Source: a virus. From it: DNA of 34,291 nucleotides. The first letter of the stretch is position 1. Each line of letters begins with the position of its first letter. The position numbers were made by a program, and so were the translations under genes. The stretch is taken from positions 1 through 34,291 of IMG/VR virus record IMGVR_UViG_3300049846_000560. One strand, given 5' to 3'. Under the pieces are notes generated by a model. It did not search any database. It was not told the DNA's origin and saw nothing but the letters and a program-made list of their open reading frames with translations. Shown here in pieces: positions 2,339 through 34,291 of the stretch.

Positions 2339-5299
2339 CTAGATCACTCCATGTGCCATGAGTAGGAAGTCGGGCGCGGGCCGGGCGTTGGTGATCCCGT
2401 AGCCTTCGAGCGTTGTCGGGTTCGTCCCCGCAGTGACCCGGCCCTTGGCGTCGACCGTGACCGAGCGATAGGTGCCCGGGGTGCCCACCGAAGCCAGGGT
2501 CAGGGCCAGATTGACGTTGCCCGCGCCCGTGAAGCCGACAGCAGGTGCAGTCGCGTCACCCGAAGCAGAAAAGTCGCGCGAGGTCGCCAGCGCAGTCGCG
2601 GTGGACGCATTGCCTGTCAACGACCCAGAGAACGACGATGCCGCAACCGCGCCGGTGAAGGTGGTCGTGCCGTCGATTCCGTACAGTTTGGTGAAGGCGT
2701 TGGAGGTGTAGTCGACCGGAACCGAAGCGAGTTCGCTGGCTGAGTTCGTGTTCATCACCACATCGGCATAGGTGCTGCCTCGGTGGTGGACCGTCATCTC
2801 GACGAAGACGTTGCCGAAAATCTGGGTGATCACGTTGAGCGCCAGCTTCGCTGCCGCCGTAGTGGTTTCCTTCGTCCACAGCACCGGGTCGACGTAGCGC
2901 ACGCCTCCGACCAACTCCTCCCAATAGGTGATACTCCAGCTCAGATCAGGCAGTGTGTTCGAGCGCAGACCCGTCGTGAAATGAATGATCTGCAAGTTAG
3001 CGCCAGAGCTAACGGTGATCGTCCCCTCCAGCACGTAGTTCTGCGAGGGACTCGCCGGGGTGACGGTGCAGATTTCCTGGAACTCACCCGGCATGAGGTA
3101 GGAGGTTCCGACGTAATACTGCGAGAACTTCTGGGTCAGGCTGTTCACGCTGCGAACCTCGCCCAGCGTGGCTAGCCCGGAGAAGGTCTTGTTGCCGGTG
3201 AAGGTTTCTACGCCGCCCAGGGTCGCAAAGTCGCCGTCCGACAAGGCTGCGTTGAACTGCGCGAGAGTCCCGGTCAGCGTGTTGCTGGACAGGTTGAACG
3301 TCTTGCCGGTCAGGGTCTGTGTACCGTCCAGCGTCGCAACCGTGCGTTGCGCAGAGCCATCTCCGAAGCTCAACGCTCCACTGAGGTATCCCAGGCGTCC
3401 AGCGGTCGTGCCAGATGCAGTGCCCGCAAGCGTTGGCGTTGTGAGGGTCGGCGACGTGGAGAACACCAGATTCGTGCTGGTGGTGCCGGTTGCACCCGCC
3501 GCCGTGTAGCCGGTGATGTTGTTGAACGCGGCGATGCCAGCGGCGCTCGCGTTCGTTCCGCCGTTTGCCACAGGCAGCACGCCGCTGATGTGGGTGGTCA
3601 GAGCGATCTTGCCCCAGCTCGGAGCTGCCCCGACACCACCCGAGATAAGTGCGTTGCCGGTCGCAACATCGGCAAGCGCAGCAATGGTGGAGGTTCCGCT
3701 CGCATAAAGAAGGTCGCCCACTGCATAGCTGGTCAACCCTGTGCCACCGCTGGTCGGTGCAAGCGTGCCGGTCACACCAGCGCTCAGGCTGACGTTGGTG
3801 ATGGTGTTGGATACACCACTGATCGTCTTGTTGGTAAGAGTCTCAACGCCATCAACCGTCGCGATGTTGCCGTCAGACACGCTCGCATTGAATTGCGCCA
3901 AGGTGCCTGTTAGCGTGTTGTTGGCGAGGTCGATCGTCTTGCCAGTCAACGTCTCGACCGACGCAGACGTCGAGTAGTCGGTGCCTGCAACAGCCGCAGT
4001 GAATGCAGAGGTTCCGTTGCCTTTGAGCAGTCCCGTCAGGGTCGTAGCGCCCGTACCGCCGCTTGCGACAGGAAGAATTCCGGTGGCGTTGGTGACCGAA
4101 ATGCGGTAGTTGACACTCGAGTACCACTGCGTCGTGCTACTGGCGTCGAAACACATCACCCCGCCAACAGGCAACTGGATGGACGTGTTGATCGCCAGGG
4201 CGTCGATGTAGGCGCTTGTGGCGGGGTAGATGTTGATCGGGTTCGCGCCCTTGTTCACCACCACCATCCGTCGCCCGGTCGTAGCCGTTGGGAGGGTGAC
4301 GCCGGATGGATTGCTGGCCGCTGTCGTGACAACGACAAGATCACCCGTCAAGGCGCCCTGCCCTTGCGCGTTGGTGCCTGCGGTAACAGCAGCAGTGGTA
4401 TTGAAAACCGGCGCGCTTAGCGTCTTGTTGGTCAGGGTCTGCGTGCCGTCCAGCGTTGCAACGGAGCGCTGAACGGAACCGTCACCAAAGCTCAGAACGC
4501 CACTGGAGTACCCCAAACGCCCAGCGGTTGTCCCTGATGCCGTGCCTGCAAGCGTGGGTGTCGTGAGGGTCGGTGAGGTTGAAAAGACGAGGTTGGTGCT
4601 GGTGGTGCCGGTGGCACCAGCCGCGCTATAGCCCGTGATGTTGTTGAAGGCGGCGATGCCCGCCGAGCTGGCGTTCGTTCCGCCGTTGGCGACAGGGAGG
4701 ACGCCGCTGACATGGGCGGTTAGTGTGACCTTGCCCCAAGATGGCGCGACACCGACGCCGCCTGAAATCAAAGCGTTCCCTGTAGCAACGTCAGCGAGCT
4801 TGGACAGTGCCGATGTAGTGCTGGCATACAGCAAGTCGCCGACCGCATAGCTGGTCTGTCCAGTGCCGCCACTTGTTGCTGGGAGCGTTCCAGTAACGCC
4901 AGTGCTCAGGCTGACGTTGGTGATGGTGTTGTTGGAGCCGCTGATCGTCTTGTTGGTCAACGTGACGGTGTTGTCCGTCACAACCGCCACGTTGGTTGCC
5001 AACGTCAACGAAACTCGCTTGGTTCCGGCTGCAAAGTTCACCAGCGCACCGGCATTCGAGCTGGCGTGAACGGTGGTGCGCGCAAGGGTTCCGGCACTCC
5101 AAGTCCCGATGCCGGTTTCCCAATCGCCCGTGGGGGCGCCGAAGTTGTCGACCGCCGCAATGCTGTACGGGACCGTATCGCTTGCGGTGCAGACACTGCC
5201 GAACGTGCGGAAACCAGCAACCGCACCGTCAAGCGTGACGGTGCCAGTGCCCGTGGTGACGGATGTCTCCATCACCCGATCAGCAATGATCAGCGGCAT
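2339..5299 (-). CDS. Tail fibre protein with duplicated repeat module
   Basis: This 986-residue protein is low in charge and rich in Thr, Gly, Ala, Ser and Asn. It has many short fibre motifs (SGGTGxTSYAVGDLLYA, LPVANGGTNAS, TNKTISG). An approximately 181-residue module occurs twice (about residues 114-294 and 488-668) and is nearly identical in protein. Between the copies (about 310-400) lies a separate beta domain. A non-repetitive region at about 700-860 (FSQYYVGTSYLMPGEFQEIC onwards) is the likely specialised or receptor-facing part. The C-terminus carries the LEGYGITNA motif of many phage side-tail fibres. The start has a modest AACAGG site. It is followed immediately by the 131-residue gene. 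Its role as a trimeric side or tip fibre is inferred from composition and position. Confidence 0.9.
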   Translation of the reverse strand: MPLIIADRVMETSVTTGTGTVTLDGAVAGFRTFGSVCTASDTVPYSIAAVDNFGAPTGDWETGIGTWSAGTLARTTVHASSNAGALVNFAAGTKRVSLTLATNVAVVTDNTVTLTNKTISGSNNTITNVSLSTGVTGTLPATSGGTGQTSYAVGDLLYASTTSALSKLADVATGNALISGGVGVAPSWGKVTLTAHVSGVLPVANGGTNASSAGIAAFNNITGYSAAGATGTTSTNLVFSTSPTLTTPTLAGTASGTTAGRLGYSSGVLSFGDGSVQRSVATLDGTQTLTNKTLSAPVFNTTAAVTAGTNAQGQGALTGDLVVVTTAASNPSGVTLPTATTGRRMVVVNKGANPINIYPATSAYIDALAINTSIQLPVGGVMCFDASSTTQWYSSVNYRISVTNATGILPVASGGTGATTLTGLLKGNGTSAFTAAVAGTDYSTSASVETLTGKTIDLANNTLTGTLAQFNASVSDGNIATVDGVETLTNKTISGVSNTITNVSLSAGVTGTLAPTSGGTGLTSYAVGDLLYASGTSTIAALADVATGNALISGGVGAAPSWGKIALTTHISGVLPVANGGTNASAAGIAAFNNITGYTAAGATGTTSTNLVFSTSPTLTTPTLAGTASGTTAGRLGYLSGALSFGDGSAQRTVATLDGTQTLTGKTFNLSSNTLTGTLAQFNAALSDGDFATLGGVETFTGNKTFSGLATLGEVRSVNSLTQKFSQYYVGTSYLMPGEFQEICTVTPASPSQNYVLEGTITVSSGANLQIIHFTTGLRSNTLPDLSWSITYWEELVGGVRYVDPVLWTKETTTAAAKLALNVITQIFGNVFVEMTVHHRGSTYADVVMNTNSASELASVPVDYTSNAFTKLYGIDGTTTFTGAVAASSFSGSLTGNASTATALATSRDFSASGDATAPAVGFTGAGNVNLALTLASVGTPGTYRSVTVDAKGRVTAGTNPTTLEGYGITNARPAPDFLLMAHGVI
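3296..3838 (-). repeat. Direct repeat copy B inside tail fibre gene
   Basis: This encodes residues ~488-668 of the fibre and matches copy A (4418-4960) almost residue for residue, offset by 374 residues. Many synonymous differences separate the copies at DNA level. Confidence 0.8.
4418..4960 (-). repeat. Direct repeat copy A inside tail fibre gene
   Basis: This encodes residues ~114-294 of the fibre. Both copies contain SYAVGDLLYA, ATGNALISGGVG, VLPVANGGTNAS and TPTLAGTASGTTAGRLGY in the same order. The duplication is in phase and probably lengthens the shaft. Confidence 0.8.
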
Positions 5300-28063: not shown

Positions 28064-29350
28064 CTACAGCGAAATGCCCATGATGGTCGGCCTGCGCAAC
28101 GGGAACATGAACTCGATCGGGTAGCCCAGCGCGTCCGTTATGTGCTCCACCCCGAGTTTCTTGTCCACGTTCCTGCCGTCTTCCTCGTAGATCGTCTGTT
28201 CGAGCGACTGAATCAGGGCATCACAGGTTGGATCGACGAAGAGTCGGGCGGTGCCGTCCGCCGCGTGGAACATCCGGTTCACCGAATTGACCCGATCCGC
28301 CACGGGCGGATGCTTCGCACGGTGCTTGATCCGCTTGAACCCCTTTTCCCTAAAGATGTCGAGGTCGGTTTCGCCTCGAGCGTGCTGTCGGTAGCTACCT
28401 GCCGGGTCCGGGAAGATCGTGACGTTGCGGATTTGCCGGTAGTAGCGACGTTCAATCTCATCCACGACCTCTGCCGTGTTGGATGACTTGAGGTTGATTT
28501 CCGACACCGCCCAGACTTCGCCGTTGGGCTGCGGCTGGAGAATGACACTCGACATCGGGTTGATGTTGAAGTCCTGCCCCACCCAGATCGGCAAATTGGG
28601 GTTGAACCGGCAGCTCTTGACATGCGTCCTGCGATCGAAGGCGTGGTAGACCCGCCCACTCATCGTCTCGAAGCTCGCCTCGAACTCCTGACGGAACGAA
28701 CGCTCGTCCATGTCCCGACGAGCAGCCTCGACTTCCTCGCGCGGAATGAACGGACTGGTGATCGTGGGAAACTGCCAGCTCGACCAGTCGTTGCGGCGAA
28801 TCACCCCCTTGTTGTCGACGTAAGTGTCACCGCGCTGCCCGAGCATGTAGATGTCGTAGAGGAAGTTGTACGCCTTGGGCGTACCGATGAACAGGGCGTA
28901 GCCGCCGGTCGAAGCAAGGGTAGGACGCAGAACCTTGTTCCAGGCTTCCTTGTCGATGTCCTGAACCTCGTCCATGACCAGAAAATGGATTCCCACTCCG
29001 CGCAGCGAATCGGGGTTGTCCGCTCCCTTCAGTTCGATCCGGGTGCGGTTCTTCAGCGTGACCGCCAGGGTGGTTTCGTTGACCTTCTCGATCCACTCCT
29101 TGGGCAGCGACTCCATCAGCTCGGGCCACATGATCTGTTTCGCCATCCGATAGGACGGCGCGACGTACCAGATCAGCCGCTTGGGCTGGGCGGCGTAGGC
29201 AATCATGCAGGTGCGGGACAGGATCGACTTTCCCCACCGCCGCCCTGCCACCACGACCCGGAACCTACTCCGGTTCGAGTAGACCTGGGCCTGACCCGGA
29301 TGCAGGTACAGCGATCCGGGGTCGAGCGCGAACTTAGCTCGGATTGCCAT
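28064..29350 (-). CDS. Terminase large subunit
   Basis: The frame can be extended to 29410, but the ATG at 29350 has GAGG upstream and gives 428 residues. The ATPase domain has Walker A AGRRWGKS (residues 35-42), Walker B FLVMDE (Asp127, Glu128) and the coupling motif LFIGTPK (~154). The nuclease domain has its acidic residues at Asp260 (VGQDFNINP), Asp315 (IFPDPAGSY) and Asp406 (HITDALGYPIEF). It cuts concatemers and drives DNA into the procapsid through the portal. The start overlaps the small subunit gene by 17 bases. Confidence 0.97.
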   Translation of the reverse strand: MAIRAKFALDPGSLYLHPGQAQVYSNRSRFRVVVAGRRWGKSILSRTCMIAYAAQPKRLIWYVAPSYRMAKQIMWPELMESLPKEWIEKVNETTLAVTLKNRTRIELKGADNPDSLRGVGIHFLVMDEVQDIDKEAWNKVLRPTLASTGGYALFIGTPKAYNFLYDIYMLGQRGDTYVDNKGVIRRNDWSSWQFPTITSPFIPREEVEAARRDMDERSFRQEFEASFETMSGRVYHAFDRRTHVKSCRFNPNLPIWVGQDFNINPMSSVILQPQPNGEVWAVSEINLKSSNTAEVVDEIERRYYRQIRNVTIFPDPAGSYRQHARGETDLDIFREKGFKRIKHRAKHPPVADRVNSVNRMFHAADGTARLFVDPTCDALIQSLEQTIYEEDGRNVDKKLGVEHITDALGYPIEFMFPLRRPTIMGISL

Positions 29351-29969
29351 TGAGGGCCTCAGCGGCTTCGTCCGCCTCGCGTTCACGCTGCAACTGCGAC
29401 ACGATGGCATCCGCGCCGTCGATCGCCTCTTCCTGCAAGTCGCTGATTTCCTCCGGGGTCATCCCACGGATCGTCAGCTCGGGCAGCGGCTTGTCGCCAG
29501 CGTCGTCTTCCTGAATGCCCAGAACCTTGTACGCTTCCTCCCGACAGGTCCGTACCGTCGTCGCAGCGTCTCGAAGCGCCCGGATGTCGTTCACAAGCGT
29601 GCCAAGGGGCTTGCCCTGCTTGTGGGCGTCGATGATCTGCGCGGCGACCTTCTGACGGATCATCGCGATGATCTTGTAGGTTTCGTTCTTGGTCGTGAAA
29701 ATGCGCTTCGCAAGCTCGCTGGGCTCGATCACCAGGGCGGCTTCCGCTGCCGCAGCTTGTCGGGCAAGGATCTCTCCTTTCACCGCCCCGACGTGCTTGA
29801 ACTTCTCCTGAAGCCGACGCTTGCTGACGCCGTACTTCTTGGAAAGCCCAACCAGGGTGGCCTCGCCTTGCTTCCACTCAAGGATCGCGTCGTTCCACTG
29901 CGCCGCTGTCAGCTTACGGGTTGTCCAGCCCTCGGGCTTCTCGGACTCTTCGGTCTTCGGATCGGTCAT
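29334..29969 (-). CDS. Terminase small subunit
   Basis: This encodes 211 residues. After an acidic N-terminal tail there is a helix-turn-helix at residues ~39-58 (LVGLSKKYGVSKRRLQEKFK) suited to packaging-site recognition. A long helical oligomerisation region (YKIIAMIRQKVAAQIIDAHK; LRDAATTVRTCREEAYKVLG) and an acidic C-terminus (LQREREADEAAEALNG) that could contact the large subunit follow. The ATG lacks a good Shine-Dalgarno and lies 12 bases after an intrinsic terminator, so expression depends on readthrough or antitermination. Confidence 0.88.
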   Translation of the reverse strand: MTDPKTEESEKPEGWTTRKLTAAQWNDAILEWKQGEATLVGLSKKYGVSKRRLQEKFKHVGAVKGEILARQAAAAEAALVIEPSELAKRIFTTKNETYKIIAMIRQKVAAQIIDAHKQGKPLGTLVNDIRALRDAATTVRTCREEAYKVLGIQEDDAGDKPLPELTIRGMTPEEISDLQEEAIDGADAIVSQLQREREADEAAEALNGNPS

Positions 29970-29981
29970 GGTTGAGTCAGC

Positions 29982-30012
29982 AAAAAAAATGGCGCACAGG
30001 GGATGGGCGCCA
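29982..30012 (-). terminator. Intrinsic terminator or attenuator before terminase genes
   Basis: On the minus strand TGGCGC and GCGCCA pair around an 11-base loop and are followed by eight T residues. It ends 12 bases before the terminase small subunit ATG and lies about 60 bases after a promoter-like site. Confidence 0.75.
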
Positions 30013-30049
30013 AGACAAGGAGGGAAACGGAACCCCCATGTGTGCCCGG

Positions 30050-30078
30050 ACTGTAACGACCGGCACGCCGAAAGTCAA
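30050..30078 (-). promoter_or_regulatory. Sigma70-like promoter upstream of terminase genes
   Basis: On the minus strand TTGACT, a 17-base spacer and TACAGT. The spacer contains the small palindrome CGGC-GT-GCCG. The predicted start is near 30043, giving a leader of about 60 bases to the terminator. Confidence 0.6.
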
Positions 30079-30220
30079 TGAGCACTGACTTACCCATTCC
30101 GGGAGTTCTCGACCCCAGATCGGGCATGTGTAGAGGCTTGGGGAAGTGTAACAAGATGTAACGCCATCAACAGTTAAATCTTCTTCTCTTCTTCTTCTTC
30201 TTTGTATTGAGAAGGTCTTA

Positions 30221-30249
30221 TATATATAGGAAAAGTCATTTTTACCCAA
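30221..30249 (-). promoter_or_regulatory. AT-rich promoter-like element
   Basis: On the minus strand TTGGGT, a 17-base spacer and TATATA inside TATATATATA (30228-30219). The -35 match is weak. It could be a second promoter for the packaging operon or an AT-rich bend. Confidence 0.35.
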
Positions 30250-30308
30250 CGACGTGCCAAAAGTGGATTTTCTGGATGGAAATACAGTGCTCCGGGAGCG
30301 AAAAAGGA

Positions 30309-30337
30309 TTGACAAAAGGGAAGTTCAAACATAAAGT
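30309..30337 (+). promoter_or_regulatory. Plus-strand promoter-like site overlapping palindrome
   Basis: TTGACA at 30309-30314, a 17-base spacer and TAAAGT at 30332-30337. The -10 lies in the left arm of the palindrome. No plus-strand gene follows; a transcript would be antisense to the accessory block. Confidence 0.3.
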
Positions 30338-30356
30338 GCGAAGCACTTTATGTTTG
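30326..30356. other. Perfect 14-bp palindrome at end of accessory operon
   Basis: CAAACATAAAGTGC and GCACTTTATGTTTG flank a three-base centre (GAA on plus, TTC on minus). The right arm covers the TAA stop of the winged-helix-like gene. It could be a bidirectional terminator with U-rich arms, or an operator. Confidence 0.7.
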
Positions 30357-30716
30357 CACCCCGTCTGTCAGGATGCCGTCATAGGGAGAGGCTTCCGGTT
30401 CGTGGAAGACAGGAAGTTGAGGCTTCGGAGCTGCGATGATTGAGCCCTTCCGGGTCGCGATGTAGCCCACCCTCTTATAGCTCCTACGCTTGCCGACATC
30501 CCGTTTTTCGATCAAGCCTCGAGCCACCAACACCCGGATTAGGAACTGCATGCTGGACTTGGTAGTGGCCCGGAACTCGATGGCAAGCCGGTCCAGCAAT
30601 TGATCTAGGTCAATTACAGCGTCCATTCCCTGCTCGCCGGGGTTGCCCCGGCAGATCAGTTCAAGCGTCTTGAGCTGAAGCGCTGTCAGCTCGCCGTTGA
30701 CAAGAATCTCGGTCAT
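30348..30716 (-). CDS. Winged-helix-like protein, possible regulator
   Basis: This encodes 122 residues: MTEILVNGELTALQLKTLEL is followed by LDRLAIEFRATTKSSMQFLI and RVLVARGLIEKRDVGKRRSY, then YIATRKG. The order helix, helix, recognition helix and a basic beta wing fits a winged helix-turn-helix of about 80 residues. The C-terminal ~35 residues look disordered. It is the last gene of the accessory block, coupled by ATGA to the GNAT gene, and its stop lies in the palindrome. It may regulate the adjacent promoters, or bind DNA as part of the GNAT/ATPase system. Confidence 0.72.
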   Translation of the reverse strand: MTEILVNGELTALQLKTLELICRGNPGEQGMDAVIDLDQLLDRLAIEFRATTKSSMQFLIRVLVARGLIEKRDVGKRRSYKRVGYIATRKGSIIAAPKPQLPVFHEPEASPYDGILTDGVQT

Positions 30717-31618
30717 AGAAGGTCCAGCCTCAGTGGCTCGTCTGTGGGTTGGTTGTCGAATGCGGTGATGGGGATTCGATCCGGGAGCTTGCGACCGTAG
30801 TCGGGGTTTCTGTAGACCGAATAGACCGTCGAGGCGAACGTGATCTGCATGACTTGCTTGATCAGGTAGGCCACCGGAAGCGTCGCGACCCGACTGCGGC
30901 CCGCAAGGCGCTTCTCGCCTGACTTCTCCATCGCGCTGTGCTTGTAGTAGAACTCGCGGATGTCGCGCAGAGCGGCTACCCGCGCGTAATCCGGCATCGT
31001 CTCAAGCTCTTCCAGAATCGCCGCGTAGTCGTAGGGCGGCGACTTGAAGTTGCGAGTCAGGGCTTCGATCCCGGCCTCGAGCGCAGGGGCCGTTTTGGGG
31101 CTGACGAAGCGCATCCCGGCCTTCGTGGCGAACGGGTTGAACCGCGTCATGCTGGCTCGTGTTTCGAGGTAGCGAAAGCCCGACATCCTGAAGGCAAGGT
31201 TGCACAGGCGATAGCCGATCCCAGCGCTTCGGTACATGGTGTCCACTACATTGCGCGACCCACTTCGGATGTTGCGGTTCATCCACTTCACCCGCATCGA
31301 CTGCATCAGCTTCGTGTCGATGCCGTCTTGGTTGGGCTTCAGGTTCGGGAAGACCTCGTTGCGGCCCGCGTCCAGCACCTTCGGCACCGCCAGGACAAGC
31401 GCACCGATCGTCTCTTCCACACCGGGTTTGTGCTCGATCAGACAGCGAGTGAAGATCGGACCAACCCCCGTGTCGTGAGCCTTGTAGTGGAGCGCCTTCA
31501 TGGCGTTCCAGTCTTCCGCGCAGCCTCGCTCGACGTAGATCGACGAGATGAGGCTCAAAGGGCGTTTGTACGGCCCCGGGTCGGTCTTGACGACGGTTTC
31601 GGACAAGTCATCGTGCAT
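30713..31618 (-). CDS. GNAT-fold acyltransferase-like protein
   Basis: This encodes 301 residues. The acetyl-CoA loop of the GNAT fold is visible as VVDTMYRSAGIGYRL (Arg130-x-x-Gly133-Ile-Gly135), preceded by a strand (IGALVLAVPKVLD, ~71-83) and followed by FRYLETRASMTRFNPFATKA then GMRF (Asn161 to Phe171), the usual motif B. The C-terminal ~120 residues are helical and end YGRKLPDRIPITAFDNQP. Sequence style and a nearby matching ABC ATPase recall the cellular COG2401 family, where the two are fused. Mu Mom shows that phages use GNAT folds to modify DNA bases, but whether this protein acts on DNA is inference. It overlaps the thioredoxin gene by 11 bases. Confidence 0.78.
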   Translation of the reverse strand: MHDDLSETVVKTDPGPYKRPLSLISSIYVERGCAEDWNAMKALHYKAHDTGVGPIFTRCLIEHKPGVEETIGALVLAVPKVLDAGRNEVFPNLKPNQDGIDTKLMQSMRVKWMNRNIRSGSRNVVDTMYRSAGIGYRLCNLAFRMSGFRYLETRASMTRFNPFATKAGMRFVSPKTAPALEAGIEALTRNFKSPPYDYAAILEELETMPDYARVAALRDIREFYYKHSAMEKSGEKRLAGRSRVATLPVAYLIKQVMQITFASTVYSVYRNPDYGRKLPDRIPITAFDNQPTDEPLRLDLL

Positions 31619-31901
31619 CGGGCAACAACGCCATCAGCGCCGCCTCCGTCTGTGCGCCCTGACGTTGACTGAAGGGCGACCCGTTGACATAGAAGAAGGT
31701 TGTGGGCACCGCACGCACGCCGTAGGTGCCTGCAAGGTCTGGGCGCTTGCCTGCATCCACGTAGCCCAGGTTGATGCCCAGACGCTCGCAGAAGCGCTCA
31801 AGTACCGGCTTGTAGGTCCGGCACGGGGCGCAGGTATGCGAGCCGAACAGGACCAGTCCGGTGAACCCCTTGAGGTCGTTGAGTCCGTTGATTTCCTTCA
31901 T
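31608..31901 (-). CDS. Thioredoxin-like protein
   Basis: This is a 97-residue minimal thioredoxin. LVLFGSHTCAPCRTYKPVLE holds the CxxC redox pair (Cys24, Cys27; CAPC rather than the usual CGPC), and RAVPTTFFYVNG carries the conserved cis-proline at Pro66. No signal peptide is visible, so it is cytoplasmic. It lies between the GNAT gene and a small membrane protein with overlaps on both sides, so it is probably made with them. Possible roles are reductant for a modification enzyme, polymerase processivity (as in T7 with host thioredoxin), or redox support of nucleotide synthesis. Context favours the first weakly. Confidence 0.92.
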   Translation of the reverse strand: MKEINGLNDLKGFTGLVLFGSHTCAPCRTYKPVLERFCERLGINLGYVDAGKRPDLAGTYGVRAVPTTFFYVNGSPFSQRQGAQTEAALMALLPDAR

Positions 31902-32068
31902 TGCCAGCCTCTAAAGATGTTGTCGAAAGTTCGCAGGAAGTCCGCCTTCCAGATGGGCCAGTGATACTTGATCGCGAATCGCGATTCCGTGATCGTTACG
32001 ACCGCTATGACGAAGACGAACACAATCGGCCATAGCAGCATGTAGAGAATTGCCTTGAATCGGTCCAT
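31898..32068 (-). CDS. Small single-pass membrane protein (56 aa)
   Basis: The sequence begins MDRFKAILYMLLWPIVFVFV and continues IAVVTITESRF, giving one membrane helix at about residues 7-25, then an amphipathic tail with several tryptophans (HWPIWKADFLRTF). Its ATG overlaps the ATPase stop (TGATG) and its TGA overlaps the thioredoxin start (ATGA), so it is embedded in the coupled series. It could anchor the ATPase or thioredoxin to the membrane. Function is unknown. Confidence 0.75.
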   Translation of the reverse strand: MDRFKAILYMLLWPIVFVFVIAVVTITESRFAIKYHWPIWKADFLRTFDNIFRGWQ

Positions 32069-32772
32069 CACAGCACCTTCAGGAGTTCGGCGTAGACCCG
32101 TGCTGACGGGGTTTCGTCGGCGGCCAGGGCGTGCTGGGTTTCGACCCGCAGCTTTTCCCGGTATCGCTTCTCGATGTAGAGGCTCGGGGCGAGGTCGTGA
32201 ACCATGTCAGTGTGGGTGGTCGCCACCAGCACCGTCGCGCCCACTGCGCGGGCGGTCTTCTGCACGCTGTAGGCGATCACCTTCGCAGCGGTGCGGTCCA
32301 GTACCGCCATGAACTCGTCCGCAACCCAGACCTCGGCGCCCGTCTCGATCGCTTTGGCGAGTCGGAAACGGTAGCGCTGCCCGTCCGACAGCTCCTGGGG
32401 CTTGCGGATGAAGAGATAGGCGTCGTTGAGCCCGGCGATCGACAGCAGGCGCAGCGCGTCGCTGGTGTCCGTGCCGATCTGGTCGACGAGGGTCTTGTCG
32501 GGGTCGAGCGTTACCTTGTCCAGATTGATGACTGATTTGCCGCGAGCTTCCATCTGCGCGGCCAGCTCGCGCAGCGCGATCGACTTGCCCGACCCGGACT
32601 GCCCGGTGATGTAGACGACCGAGCCCTGCGGCACCGTCAGCTCGAGCTTGTCGAAGACGACGAACTCTTGATCGTCCAGGCCCAGCCCGAACGCTTCGGC
32701 GACCTCCACCACCCGCTGGCTGCGGGCGACCTGGGTCGTGAACTTCTTGTCGAGGATGTAGGTGTCGCTCAT
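32068..32772 (-). CDS. ABC-type ATPase, COG2401-like
   Basis: The frame extends to 33081, but the ATG at 32772 forms an ATGA overlap with the upstream gene and gives 234 residues: a single nucleotide-binding domain. Walker A is GQSGSGKS (57-64), the signature is ELSDGQRYRFRLAKAIE (LSDGQ at 128-132), Walker B is VWVADE (Asp152, Glu153) and the H-loop is TTHTDM (His187). There is no permease gene, so it is not a standard transporter. The pattern (INLDKV, DALRLLSIAGLNDAYLF, QKTARAVGATVLVATTHTD) resembles the ATPase part of COG2401. It probably works with the nearby GNAT protein. Confidence 0.88.
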   Translation of the reverse strand: MSDTYILDKKFTTQVARSQRVVEVAEAFGLGLDDQEFVVFDKLELTVPQGSVVYITGQSGSGKSIALRELAAQMEARGKSVINLDKVTLDPDKTLVDQIGTDTSDALRLLSIAGLNDAYLFIRKPQELSDGQRYRFRLAKAIETGAEVWVADEFMAVLDRTAAKVIAYSVQKTARAVGATVLVATTHTDMVHDLAPSLYIEKRYREKLRVETQHALAADETPSARVYAELLKVL

Positions 32773-33239
32773 TCGTCGTACCAATCTGCCTTCTTCAGAC
32801 GTTTCGTCGTGGTGCCCTCCTGCAGAGCAAGGCTGGTTCCGTAGTCGTGACATACCAGCCAATCGCGCCCAGGCTTCCCGCCCTTCTTCTTGGACTGCGC
32901 CAGCCCCCAGTTCGCGCGCTTCAGGTCCGTGAACCACGCCGGTACCTTGCGAGGGAAGTTGGACGGGCGTGCGGGGTAGGTGCGCTCCTGGATGAGAATC
33001 TTCCCGTTGGGGGAGATCCACCTGCACTCGGCAAACCACCGCGACGCGGCGGTGTGCTGCACGAAGCACCATGTTCTCCACTCCATGATGTTCTGGTAGT
33101 GGTGGTGGGGGTCACTCTCGACCTTCACCACATACCCCGGAAGAATGGCGCACTCGAAAACCGTGCGACTCATGCCCGAGCCCAGCTCGGCACCGCAGAG
33201 CAGGTTGAAGGATTCCTTGAAGACTTCCTTGTTACTCAC
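32769..33239 (-). CDS. Miniature protein-kinase-like protein
   Basis: This 156-residue protein carries an ordered set of kinase-like motifs. ELGSGMSRTVFE is a glycine-rich loop (Gly20, Gly22, Val27). GYVVKVE supplies the possible ATP lysine Lys39. Glu53 in an NIMEWRTW helix could pair with it. ILIQERTY looks like a hinge. FTDLKRANWGL matches the catalytic loop DLKxxN (Asp105, Asn110). WLVCHDYG matches the metal-binding DFG (Asp132). The usual large helical C-lobe is missing, so it is much shorter than known kinases (~250 residues). It could be an active minimal kinase, a nucleotidylating enzyme or a binding protein. It is ATGA-coupled to the ATPase. Confidence 0.65.
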   Translation of the reverse strand: MSNKEVFKESFNLLCGAELGSGMSRTVFECAILPGYVVKVESDPHHHYQNIMEWRTWCFVQHTAASRWFAECRWISPNGKILIQERTYPARPSNFPRKVPAWFTDLKRANWGLAQSKKKGGKPGRDWLVCHDYGTSLALQEGTTTKRLKKADWYDE

Positions 33240-33510
33240 GCGCGGCGTCCCATTCCTTGCTCAGCCACTGGAATTCCGGCAGCTCCGAGGTATCAATCTC
33301 GAAGGCGCGAGTCATGAACAGCGCCGCAGCCCAGTTCGCCCTCTTGTGTTCGCCGCCCAGGTCGACAAAGGACATGGCGACATTGCAGTGCCAGGACCAT
33401 GCCCAGCTCGGGTCGCGTTGCATGTTGCGCTTCAATACCCAGAAGGCAACGCGGCTCGAGAGAATGGTTGGGCGGCAGCAGTGCAGCCAGTAGCGAAGTT
33501 TTTCAAGCAT
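33232..33510 (-). CDS. Small conserved phage protein, unknown function
   Basis: This encodes 92 residues starting MLEKLRYWLHCCRPTILSSR. The core SWAWSWHCNVAMSFVDLGGE is followed by KRANWAAALFMTRAFEIDTS, a pattern I recognise from short, uncharacterised phage proteins (a W.WH.N.AM.F.D.G ... N..AA.FM...F..D.S line). There are no zinc or catalytic motifs. GAAGGA lies at a usable distance from the ATG. It overlaps both neighbours by eight bases, so it is part of the coupled accessory operon. Confidence 0.75.
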   Translation of the reverse strand: MLEKLRYWLHCCRPTILSSRVAFWVLKRNMQRDPSWAWSWHCNVAMSFVDLGGEHKRANWAAALFMTRAFEIDTSELPEFQWLSKEWDAARE

Positions 33511-33898
33511 GGTTCGATTCCTTCCTCATACGTCGAAGCGTCTTGTTCATCCAGTTGTCCAGGCGCGGGTTTCTCAGACGGGTTTCAACTACCCCCTTTG
33601 AGTTTTGCGTGACGAAGTGCTCTTCCGAGCTGTCGTCGCCAACCCCATATACCCAGTTGACGCAGTGACTGATTTCGTGATGAACCACTTCGGCGCACCG
33701 CTGAAACGCGAGAGTTCTGGGCAGATAGATACGAAACTTGCCGATCACCGACATTCCGTCGTTACCGTCGAGCACCGGATCGCCCTCGTCAACAATCGAG
33801 ATTCGGAATGCGTAGGGACCGATCAGGATTCGTCTTGGCAGGCCCTTGAATACATCGTCTTCCTGTTCAGTCGTCGGCAGGTTTTCGACTTGCGTCAT
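33503..33898 (-). CDS. Small zinc metallopeptidase-like protein (HExxH)
   Basis: This encodes 131 residues. CAEVVHHEISHCVNWVYGVG contains HExxH (His74, Glu75, His78), with Glu92/Glu93 and His94 (SEEHF) 14-16 residues later as possible third ligands. Before it, IGPYAFRISIVDEGDPVLDG and IGKFRIYLPRTLAFQRCAEV match the beta sheet and active-site helix of compact phage SprT/ImmA-like peptidase-like proteins. The C-terminus is basic. The target is unknown; plausible roles are cleavage of a host regulator or a structural zinc fold without activity. Confidence 0.72.
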   Translation of the reverse strand: MTQVENLPTTEQEDDVFKGLPRRILIGPYAFRISIVDEGDPVLDGNDGMSVIGKFRIYLPRTLAFQRCAEVVHHEISHCVNWVYGVGDDSSEEHFVTQNSKGVVETRLRNPRLDNWMNKTLRRMRKESNHA

Positions 33899-34013
33899 GG
33901 GCGTCTCCCCGAATAGAACTGCGAATGTTGAAAGTACCCCAGGCGATGATCATGCAGGCGACGAGCGGAGAAATAGCTGGGAAAATGCCAGCCAGTGCGA
34001 ATAAGTCTCTCAT
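33867..34013 (-). CDS. Small membrane protein (48 aa)
   Basis: The product begins MRDLFALAGIFPAISPLVAC and continues MIIAWGTFNIR, with one hydrophobic segment covering residues ~4-28 and a polar basic C-terminus. The ATG lies three bases after the preceding stop, and the 3' end overlaps the metallopeptidase gene by 32 bases. It is short and has no clear ribosome-binding site. Its support comes from tight spacing and the membrane helix. Confidence 0.55.
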   Translation of the reverse strand: MRDLFALAGIFPAISPLVACMIIAWGTFNIRSSIRGDAHDASRKPADD

Positions 34014-34016
34014 GAC

Positions 34017-34291
34017 TTATGCCACGCAGTCAGCAGCGTACTTCACAAGCGCTGCCTCGCCCTGCATTCCGGTCTTGTCTTCGACCCAGGCCATGAACCG
34101 ACTGATGGTCAGTTGGTTGCGGCCCTCGATGTGCTTGAAACCCAGCACCTTCCCAACCGGAACCGGCTTGGCGGACGACGTGGAGATGGCGTTGTTGATC
34201 TTCTGCACCTGATCGTCGACCGCCCCGGCAATGTCTTCGACGAAGGCGGATTCGTCCACTTCGCCGATGTCGGCGATGGCGAACTCGAGTT
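34017..34291 (-). CDS. Unknown protein, 5' end beyond window
   Basis: The frame stays open to the right edge, so the start is missing. A GTG at 34259 lies in frame, but coding-like sequence continues upstream (LEFAIADIGEVDESAFVEDI). The visible ~90 residues include DDQVQKINNAISTSS and LGFKHIEGRNQLTISRFMAW, then VEDKTGMQGEAALVKYAADC. The family is not recognised. It is soluble and acidic, and is the first visible member of the accessory operon. Confidence 0.6.
   Translation of the reverse strand, partial: LEFAIADIGEVDESAFVEDIAGAVDDQVQKINNAISTSSAKPVPVGKVLGFKHIEGRNQLTISRFMAWVEDKTGMQGEAALVKYAADCVA

Follow-up and report, generated by a model that had tools for sequence, protein, structure and literature searches.

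A split ABC-ATPase/GNAT cassette with a variable, often thioredoxin-bearing slot in SSU5-like phage-plasmids

Layout of the Cassette

The DNA analysed here, referred to as the window, is the whole of the IMG/VR virus record IMGVR_UViG_3300049846_000560. This virus fragment is 34,291 bases long and has head and tail genes of the SSU5-like type, and the region described below is the ABC-ATPase/GNAT cassette of SSU5-like phage-plasmids. The DNA of the window is similar to that of SSU5-like phage-plasmids from Rhizobium, Pseudomonas, Klebsiella, Escherichia, Stenotrophomonas and Salmonella. It is placed among them by the conserved order, and the sequence, of the cassette, the small terminase (TerS), the large terminase (TerL), the portal and the capsid genes. 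No plasmid replication or partition genes were found on the 34 kb fragment, which is only a part of the element.

Five open reading frames (ORFs) had been described in the region as an uninterrupted coupled series, and this description was confirmed in its coordinates and overlaps, with all five on the minus strand. A kinase-like ORF (32769–33239) is joined by ATGA to the gene of a stand-alone ABC ATPase domain (32068–32772). The latter is joined by TGATG to the gene of a 56-residue, one-helix membrane peptide, recognised by its hydropathy (31898–32068), and this in turn by ATGA to a thioredoxin gene (31608–31901). The thioredoxin gene overlaps by 11 bases that of a GNAT-fold acyltransferase with a C-terminal helical region (30713–31618; phrog_886, 1.8e-97). 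The series continues on both sides. Downstream, a winged-helix (wHTH) gene (30348–30716, minus strand; phrog_900, 3.7e-10, with a weak MarR_2 match) shares an ATGA junction with the GNAT gene. Upstream lie ORFs at 33232–33510, 33503–33898 and 33867–34013, followed by a ParB-like gene that is cut by the end of the window. Overlapping junctions are also present at about ten other gene pairs of the window; hence, the overlap coupling of the five genes is not special.

ABC and GNAT as Halves of a Fused Protein

The ABC ATPase (Pfam ABC_tran, 8e-13) keeps all the catalytic motifs, including the Walker A GQSGSGKS, LSDGQ, ADE and the H-loop. Its family aligns to residues 1–194 of fused ABC-GNAT phage proteins (hhalign E 6.3e-29, 99.8%), while the window GNAT family aligns to residues 215–298 of the same proteins (E 3.8e-7, 92.9%). 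The score of the GNAT half was 52.8, against a maximum of 21.3 in column-shuffled controls. As both align in order to the fused proteins, each of the two genes corresponds to one half of the fused architecture. They are separate in the window, as in every SSU5-like locus checked, and the window is thus a split variant and not a fused member.

Intact fused proteins of 366–401 residues are present in the phages P12024S, vB_VmeM-32, LE4, Axumite, EastWest and PX29, and the genes concerned include P12024S gp24, Leptospira phage LE4 gp15 and Gordonia phage Axumite gp2. As in the window, a ParB-like gene lies immediately upstream of the fused gene in LE4, Axumite and EastWest, and a terminase gene close downstream in LE4 and Axumite. 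The window differs from the fused type in having two genes instead of one, two ParB-like genes, a longer GNAT that carries a helical region at its C-terminus, and, at the fusion joint, a variable slot that a thioredoxin often fills. Judged by sequence, and assigned through these fused phage proteins, the cassette represents the COG2401-type ABC-ATPase/GNAT system in a split form spread over several genes. The depositors of Cyrano and ST13-OXA48phi12.3 also apply the COG2401 name to the GNAT. The proposal of the preliminary description that the COG2401 halves occur here as separate genes is, therefore, borne out.

A GNAT coupled with an ABC ATPase has been predicted to acylate a DNA base, with phage pT24 named as an example (PMC7824862), and the same article credits the prediction of the ABC and GNAT system to Iyer et al. 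2013. In Tenacibaculum phage pT24, the end of the ABC gene already encodes the beginning of a GNAT, whose coenzyme A (CoA) motif lies in the following ORF; the protein is of the same kind as the fused ABC-GNAT proteins. It was also observed that this fused gene (locus L174 of our sample, 2567–3739) is annotated as two ORFs about 70 bases apart, which may reflect either a frameshift or a true split within the GNAT.

Thus, the ABC and GNAT class was predicted earlier, and the SSU5-type gene pair is already visible in the records. SSU5, Cyrano, nickie and RHEph10 have an orthologous ABC and phrog_886 pair in the same order before the terminase, to which the window adds the thioredoxin, the membrane peptide and the kinase-like gene. 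In an incomplete search of the literature, no earlier statement was found of the SSU5-type pair as a split fused protein, of the thioredoxin slot or of the His-Tyr signature shared with Mom (see below). No useful mention of COG2401 or MK0520 was found in the literature searched.

Conserved Neighbourhood and Spread

The neighbourhood was surveyed in 80 IMG/VR loci together with annotated phages and plasmids, making 92 loci in all. For the genes present, the order ParB1-ParB2-ABC-[variable slot]-GNAT-wHTH-TerS-TerL was kept in 92/92 loci. The ABC gene was found in 85 of them, and in the remaining seven the contig starts no more than about 950 bases from the GNAT. An HTH profile matched after the GNAT in all the loci. 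As a search model for the ABC, phrog_293 was rejected as too broad, since it matches every genome. The survey of the five genes, therefore, gave a divided result: the ABC-GNAT neighbourhood is strongly conserved, but the kinase-like gene and the membrane peptide are not conserved members of it.

Relatives of the GNAT were found in 30 phage records, in which duplicates of the same phage are counted separately, and in at least 905 plasmid records; many of these plasmids are phage-plasmids of the SSU5-like kind from Klebsiella, Escherichia, Acinetobacter and Salmonella. A search of a genome collection for cellular homologues returned only 20 matches, nearly all on proteobacterial contigs of phage-plasmid size. 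In the plasmids, the relatives of the cassette genes are mostly mislabelled or unnamed, being entered as ABC transporter subunits or hypothetical proteins. Taken at face value, these labels, with those of PHROG and the one-helix peptide adjoining the ATPase, would make the cassette an ABC transporter with the peptide as its membrane part. Such a transporter is strongly disfavoured, as there is no permease among the conserved cassette neighbours, the membrane peptide is sporadic, and the homologues are fused to a GNAT without a membrane domain.

ParB/Srx-like genes accompany both the split and the fused ABC-GNAT forms. The gene cut by the window end (34017–34289, minus strand) encodes the C-terminal part of the second of these proteins, ParB2, as recognised by a profile built from its relatives (1e-21), which carry Pfam ParB_N. 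A domain of the ParB2 type also stands at the N-terminal end of a PADLOC model for a type II DNA methyltransferase (1e-21). DpdB and DndB are ParB-like partners of DNA-modification systems. They resemble the window in placing a ParB/Srx-fold protein beside a DNA-modifying enzyme, a likeness taken from descriptions of these systems, and differ from it in their chemistry.

The GNAT Fold and Its Relatives

The GNAT matched no Pfam family at E values up to 1, and its alignment profile found no match in the PDB. Its AlphaFold model (predicted local distance difference test score, pLDDT, 87.5) shows a GNAT core with a helical region after it and matches solved GNATs in Foldseek. The CoA-binding motif YRGxGxxYR is invariant or nearly so across the family. 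Among the viral Foldseek matches is a 366-residue Leptospira phage LE4 protein, which is a fused ABC-GNAT protein. The top PDB matches are the nucleobase acetyltransferases NAT10/TmcA, with weak support (E about 1e-4). Like the window, these RNA cytidine acetyltransferases combine a GNAT domain with an NTPase, whereas their NTPase is of the helicase type and their substrate is RNA.

Another protein compared with the window GNAT is Mu Mom (PF25680, PDB 8bv8), a DNA adenine-modifying enzyme of the GNAT fold. Its structure 8bv8 is not among the best 50 Foldseek matches listed for the GNAT. Exactly one invariant His-Tyr pair is located near the end of the first GNAT helix, and it is found in the split (30/30) and the fused (6/6) proteins as well as in Mom (8/8). 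Among 25 ordinary cellular GNATs, an approximate control made of ORFs chosen by motif, none had the pair in the first-helix region. The hhalign score of the GNAT against Mom was 25.7, above all 60 shuffled controls (21.5). Some Mom loci resemble the window in having a ParB-like neighbour, and Mom differs from it in having no ABC ATPase partner. The Mom-like genes of Microbacterium phage Dropshot (L132) and Arthrobacter phage BarretLemon (L133) follow a ParB-like gene, paralleling the cassette. Aeromonas phage PX29 (L129, L180) has both kinds of gene, one Mom-like and one encoding a fused ABC-GNAT protein.

Proposed Function

Intact ABC motifs without a permease, the ParB-like genes and the adjacency of the terminase favour a reading in which phage DNA is acylated before it is packaged, in an ATP-gated reaction helped by ParB; we assign it a probability of roughly 0.55. 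The His-Tyr pair shared with Mom, the published prediction that names pT24 and, weakly, the NAT10/TmcA matches also speak for it. The two ParB/Srx-like proteins and the wHTH protein would bring the complex to the phage DNA. The soluble ABC ATPase would dimerise on ATP and gate or position the DNA for the GNAT, which may then acylate a DNA base with acyl-CoA as the donor. This would happen shortly before packaging by the adjacent terminase, and the thioredoxin, whose gene lies where the enzyme halves meet, would be an accessory that the system can do without. We infer DNA as the substrate, acyl-CoA as the donor, the complex and the timing from homology and gene context. DNA modification by the cassette, which the preliminary description had also raised, is plausible on this basis, while its use in evading defence is speculation.

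Several observations weigh against DNA acylation. The NAT10/TmcA structures overlap the GNAT model poorly (TM score about 0.33, root-mean-square deviation about 14 Å) and score little above protein or small-molecule GNATs in Foldseek. Membership of the GNAT in the Mom family was rejected, as PF25680 was unmatched and hhalign gave only 6%. A Mom match was likewise found in none of the 26 related records. The comparison with Mom, therefore, holds for the His-Tyr signature and fails for the family. Furthermore, the evidence of the neighbourhood is indirect, since gene order is conserved throughout SSU5-like genomes.

The acylated target might instead be a protein, such as the host RNA polymerase, a ribosomal protein or one of the phage proteins for packaging or partition, and the ABC ATPase would then regulate the GNAT. 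Proteins or small molecules are the substrates of most GNATs, the Foldseek structural matches include protein acetyltransferases, and phage GNATs predicted to modify host proteins are listed in PMC7824862. The ParB-type, DNA-linked proteins beside both the split and the fused forms and the His-Tyr signature common to Mom argue against this, and we regard a protein target as rather unlikely.

If DNA acylation is true, SSU5-like elements carry an undescribed modified base, which could protect them from restriction and affect the spread of phage-plasmids. Since the cassette is also carried by phages kept in the laboratory, a prediction made over a decade ago is now open to direct experiment.

Thioredoxin and the Variable Slot

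The stretch between the ABC and GNAT genes is a variable slot, situated at the fusion joint of the fused relatives. Its commonest cargo is a thioredoxin, found in 56/84 loci (18/37 when counted at 80% identity) and always with its CxxC kept. The thioredoxin of the window matches the Pfam Thioredoxin family (2.5e-12) and carries CAPC. When 32 records were searched whole, 19 had one Pfam thioredoxin each, and after conversion of the coordinates all 19 were inside the slot. The other contents are DUF2829, HExxH, membrane or uncharacterised proteins, and in several loci the slot is empty or its borders overlap (L006, L010, L011, L017, L048, L073).

On the GNAT tree, the presence of the thioredoxin is patchy, with 11 changes, at least four of which are forced by well-supported branches. 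It was rejected as the marker of a clade of one origin, because it does not cluster on the tree and 109 of 500 shuffles gave as few as 11 changes. Such a pattern means either repeated loss of a single ancestral gene or refilling of the slot.

The preliminary description had regarded the thioredoxin as a redox partner of the system. Part of this stands, as the protein is a recurrent, position-specific member of the cassette. The redox part found no support from cysteine conservation. Neither the ABC nor the GNAT proteins have a cysteine that tracks the presence of the thioredoxin, and the commonest GNAT cysteine (Cys59 of the window) is about equally frequent with and without it. Redox partnership through co-varying cysteines was, therefore, rejected, and a redox action on the ABC or GNAT is not supported; it may have a structural role in the cassette.

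There is almost an even chance that the thioredoxin is a mere passenger, its slot being tolerant of insertions and its redox function a general one that has nothing to do with the ABC and GNAT. The patchy distribution, the lack of a matching cysteine and the unrelated contents, or none, of the slot elsewhere would all be expected of a passenger. Set against this are the constant CxxC and the confinement of the thioredoxins to the slot, and nowhere else, in the records searched whole. At the other extreme, a widespread lineage of phage-plasmids may carry a DNA acylation machine, ATP-gated and directed by ParB, that makes a novel modified base and in which the thioredoxin works as a structural or redox subunit. 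Read from the sequences, this combination appears doubtful.

Membrane Peptide and Kinase-Like Gene

The membrane peptide has no family match in Pfam or PHROG, and a hydrophobic protein of some kind occupies the slot in only 28/84 loci. It is sporadic slot cargo, and its proposed role as the anchor of the system is not upheld. In two other loci (L005 and L007), small hydrophobic proteins adjoin the slot thioredoxin and come after it, whereas the window peptide precedes it.

The kinase-like ORF belongs to phrog_4301, of unassigned function, whose relatives are mostly in Pseudomonas phages (M6, PAE1 and others). It was found in no other ABC-GNAT cassette locus examined. Both facts speak against its inclusion in the system; the gene was apparently acquired in the lineage of the window and is probably an accessory outside the cassette. 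The protein has no Pfam kinase match and no PDB sequence match, and its model, made from a shallow alignment, has a pLDDT of 42.6. It starts with a G-loop-like GxGMSRxV and a VVKVE motif.

Flanking Genes and Features

The ORF at 33503–33898 (minus strand) encodes a small, metallopeptidase-like HExxH protein (HHEISH), identified by this motif and by the position of its relatives, which lie between ParB2 and ABC in 35/35 loci where they were detected. One relative has a weak SprT-like/DUF6782 match. In Klebsiella and in some IMG/VR elements (L003, L057, L068, L092), the slot between ABC and GNAT holds a different HExxH protein.

Beyond the wHTH gene, a putative small terminase or DNA-binding protein is encoded at 29334–29969 (minus strand). 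It has no Pfam match; it precedes TerL, and its relatives are annotated as DNA binding domain or wHTH. The terminase large subunit (28064–29410, minus strand) was recognised by DNA similarity to TerL of SSU5-like phages, and a TerL profile matches after the GNAT and HTH in other cassette loci. The gap between the wHTH and small-terminase genes spans 378 bases (29970–30347). In the linear records of SSU5, Cyrano and Nican01, the break falls within the equivalent gap, and a packaging site or the genome ends may therefore lie here.

These breaks, and the position of the cassette always directly before TerS-TerL, would suit a packaging or DNA-organising factor, in which ParB, the ABC ATPase and the wHTH protein work at the genome ends, with the GNAT as their modulator. 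However, the T4-like phages vB_VmeM-32 and PX29 have fused homologues with no terminase within the flanks shown, and the GNAT has no obvious place in packaging. Such a factor is, therefore, improbable, more so than a protein target of the GNAT.

At the end of the cassette operon, a perfect 14-bp inverted repeat with a 3-nt loop (30326–30356, minus strand) overlaps the stop codon of the wHTH gene. Its predicted RNA fold (−31.4 kcal/mol, z = −7.2) suggests that it is probably a terminator.

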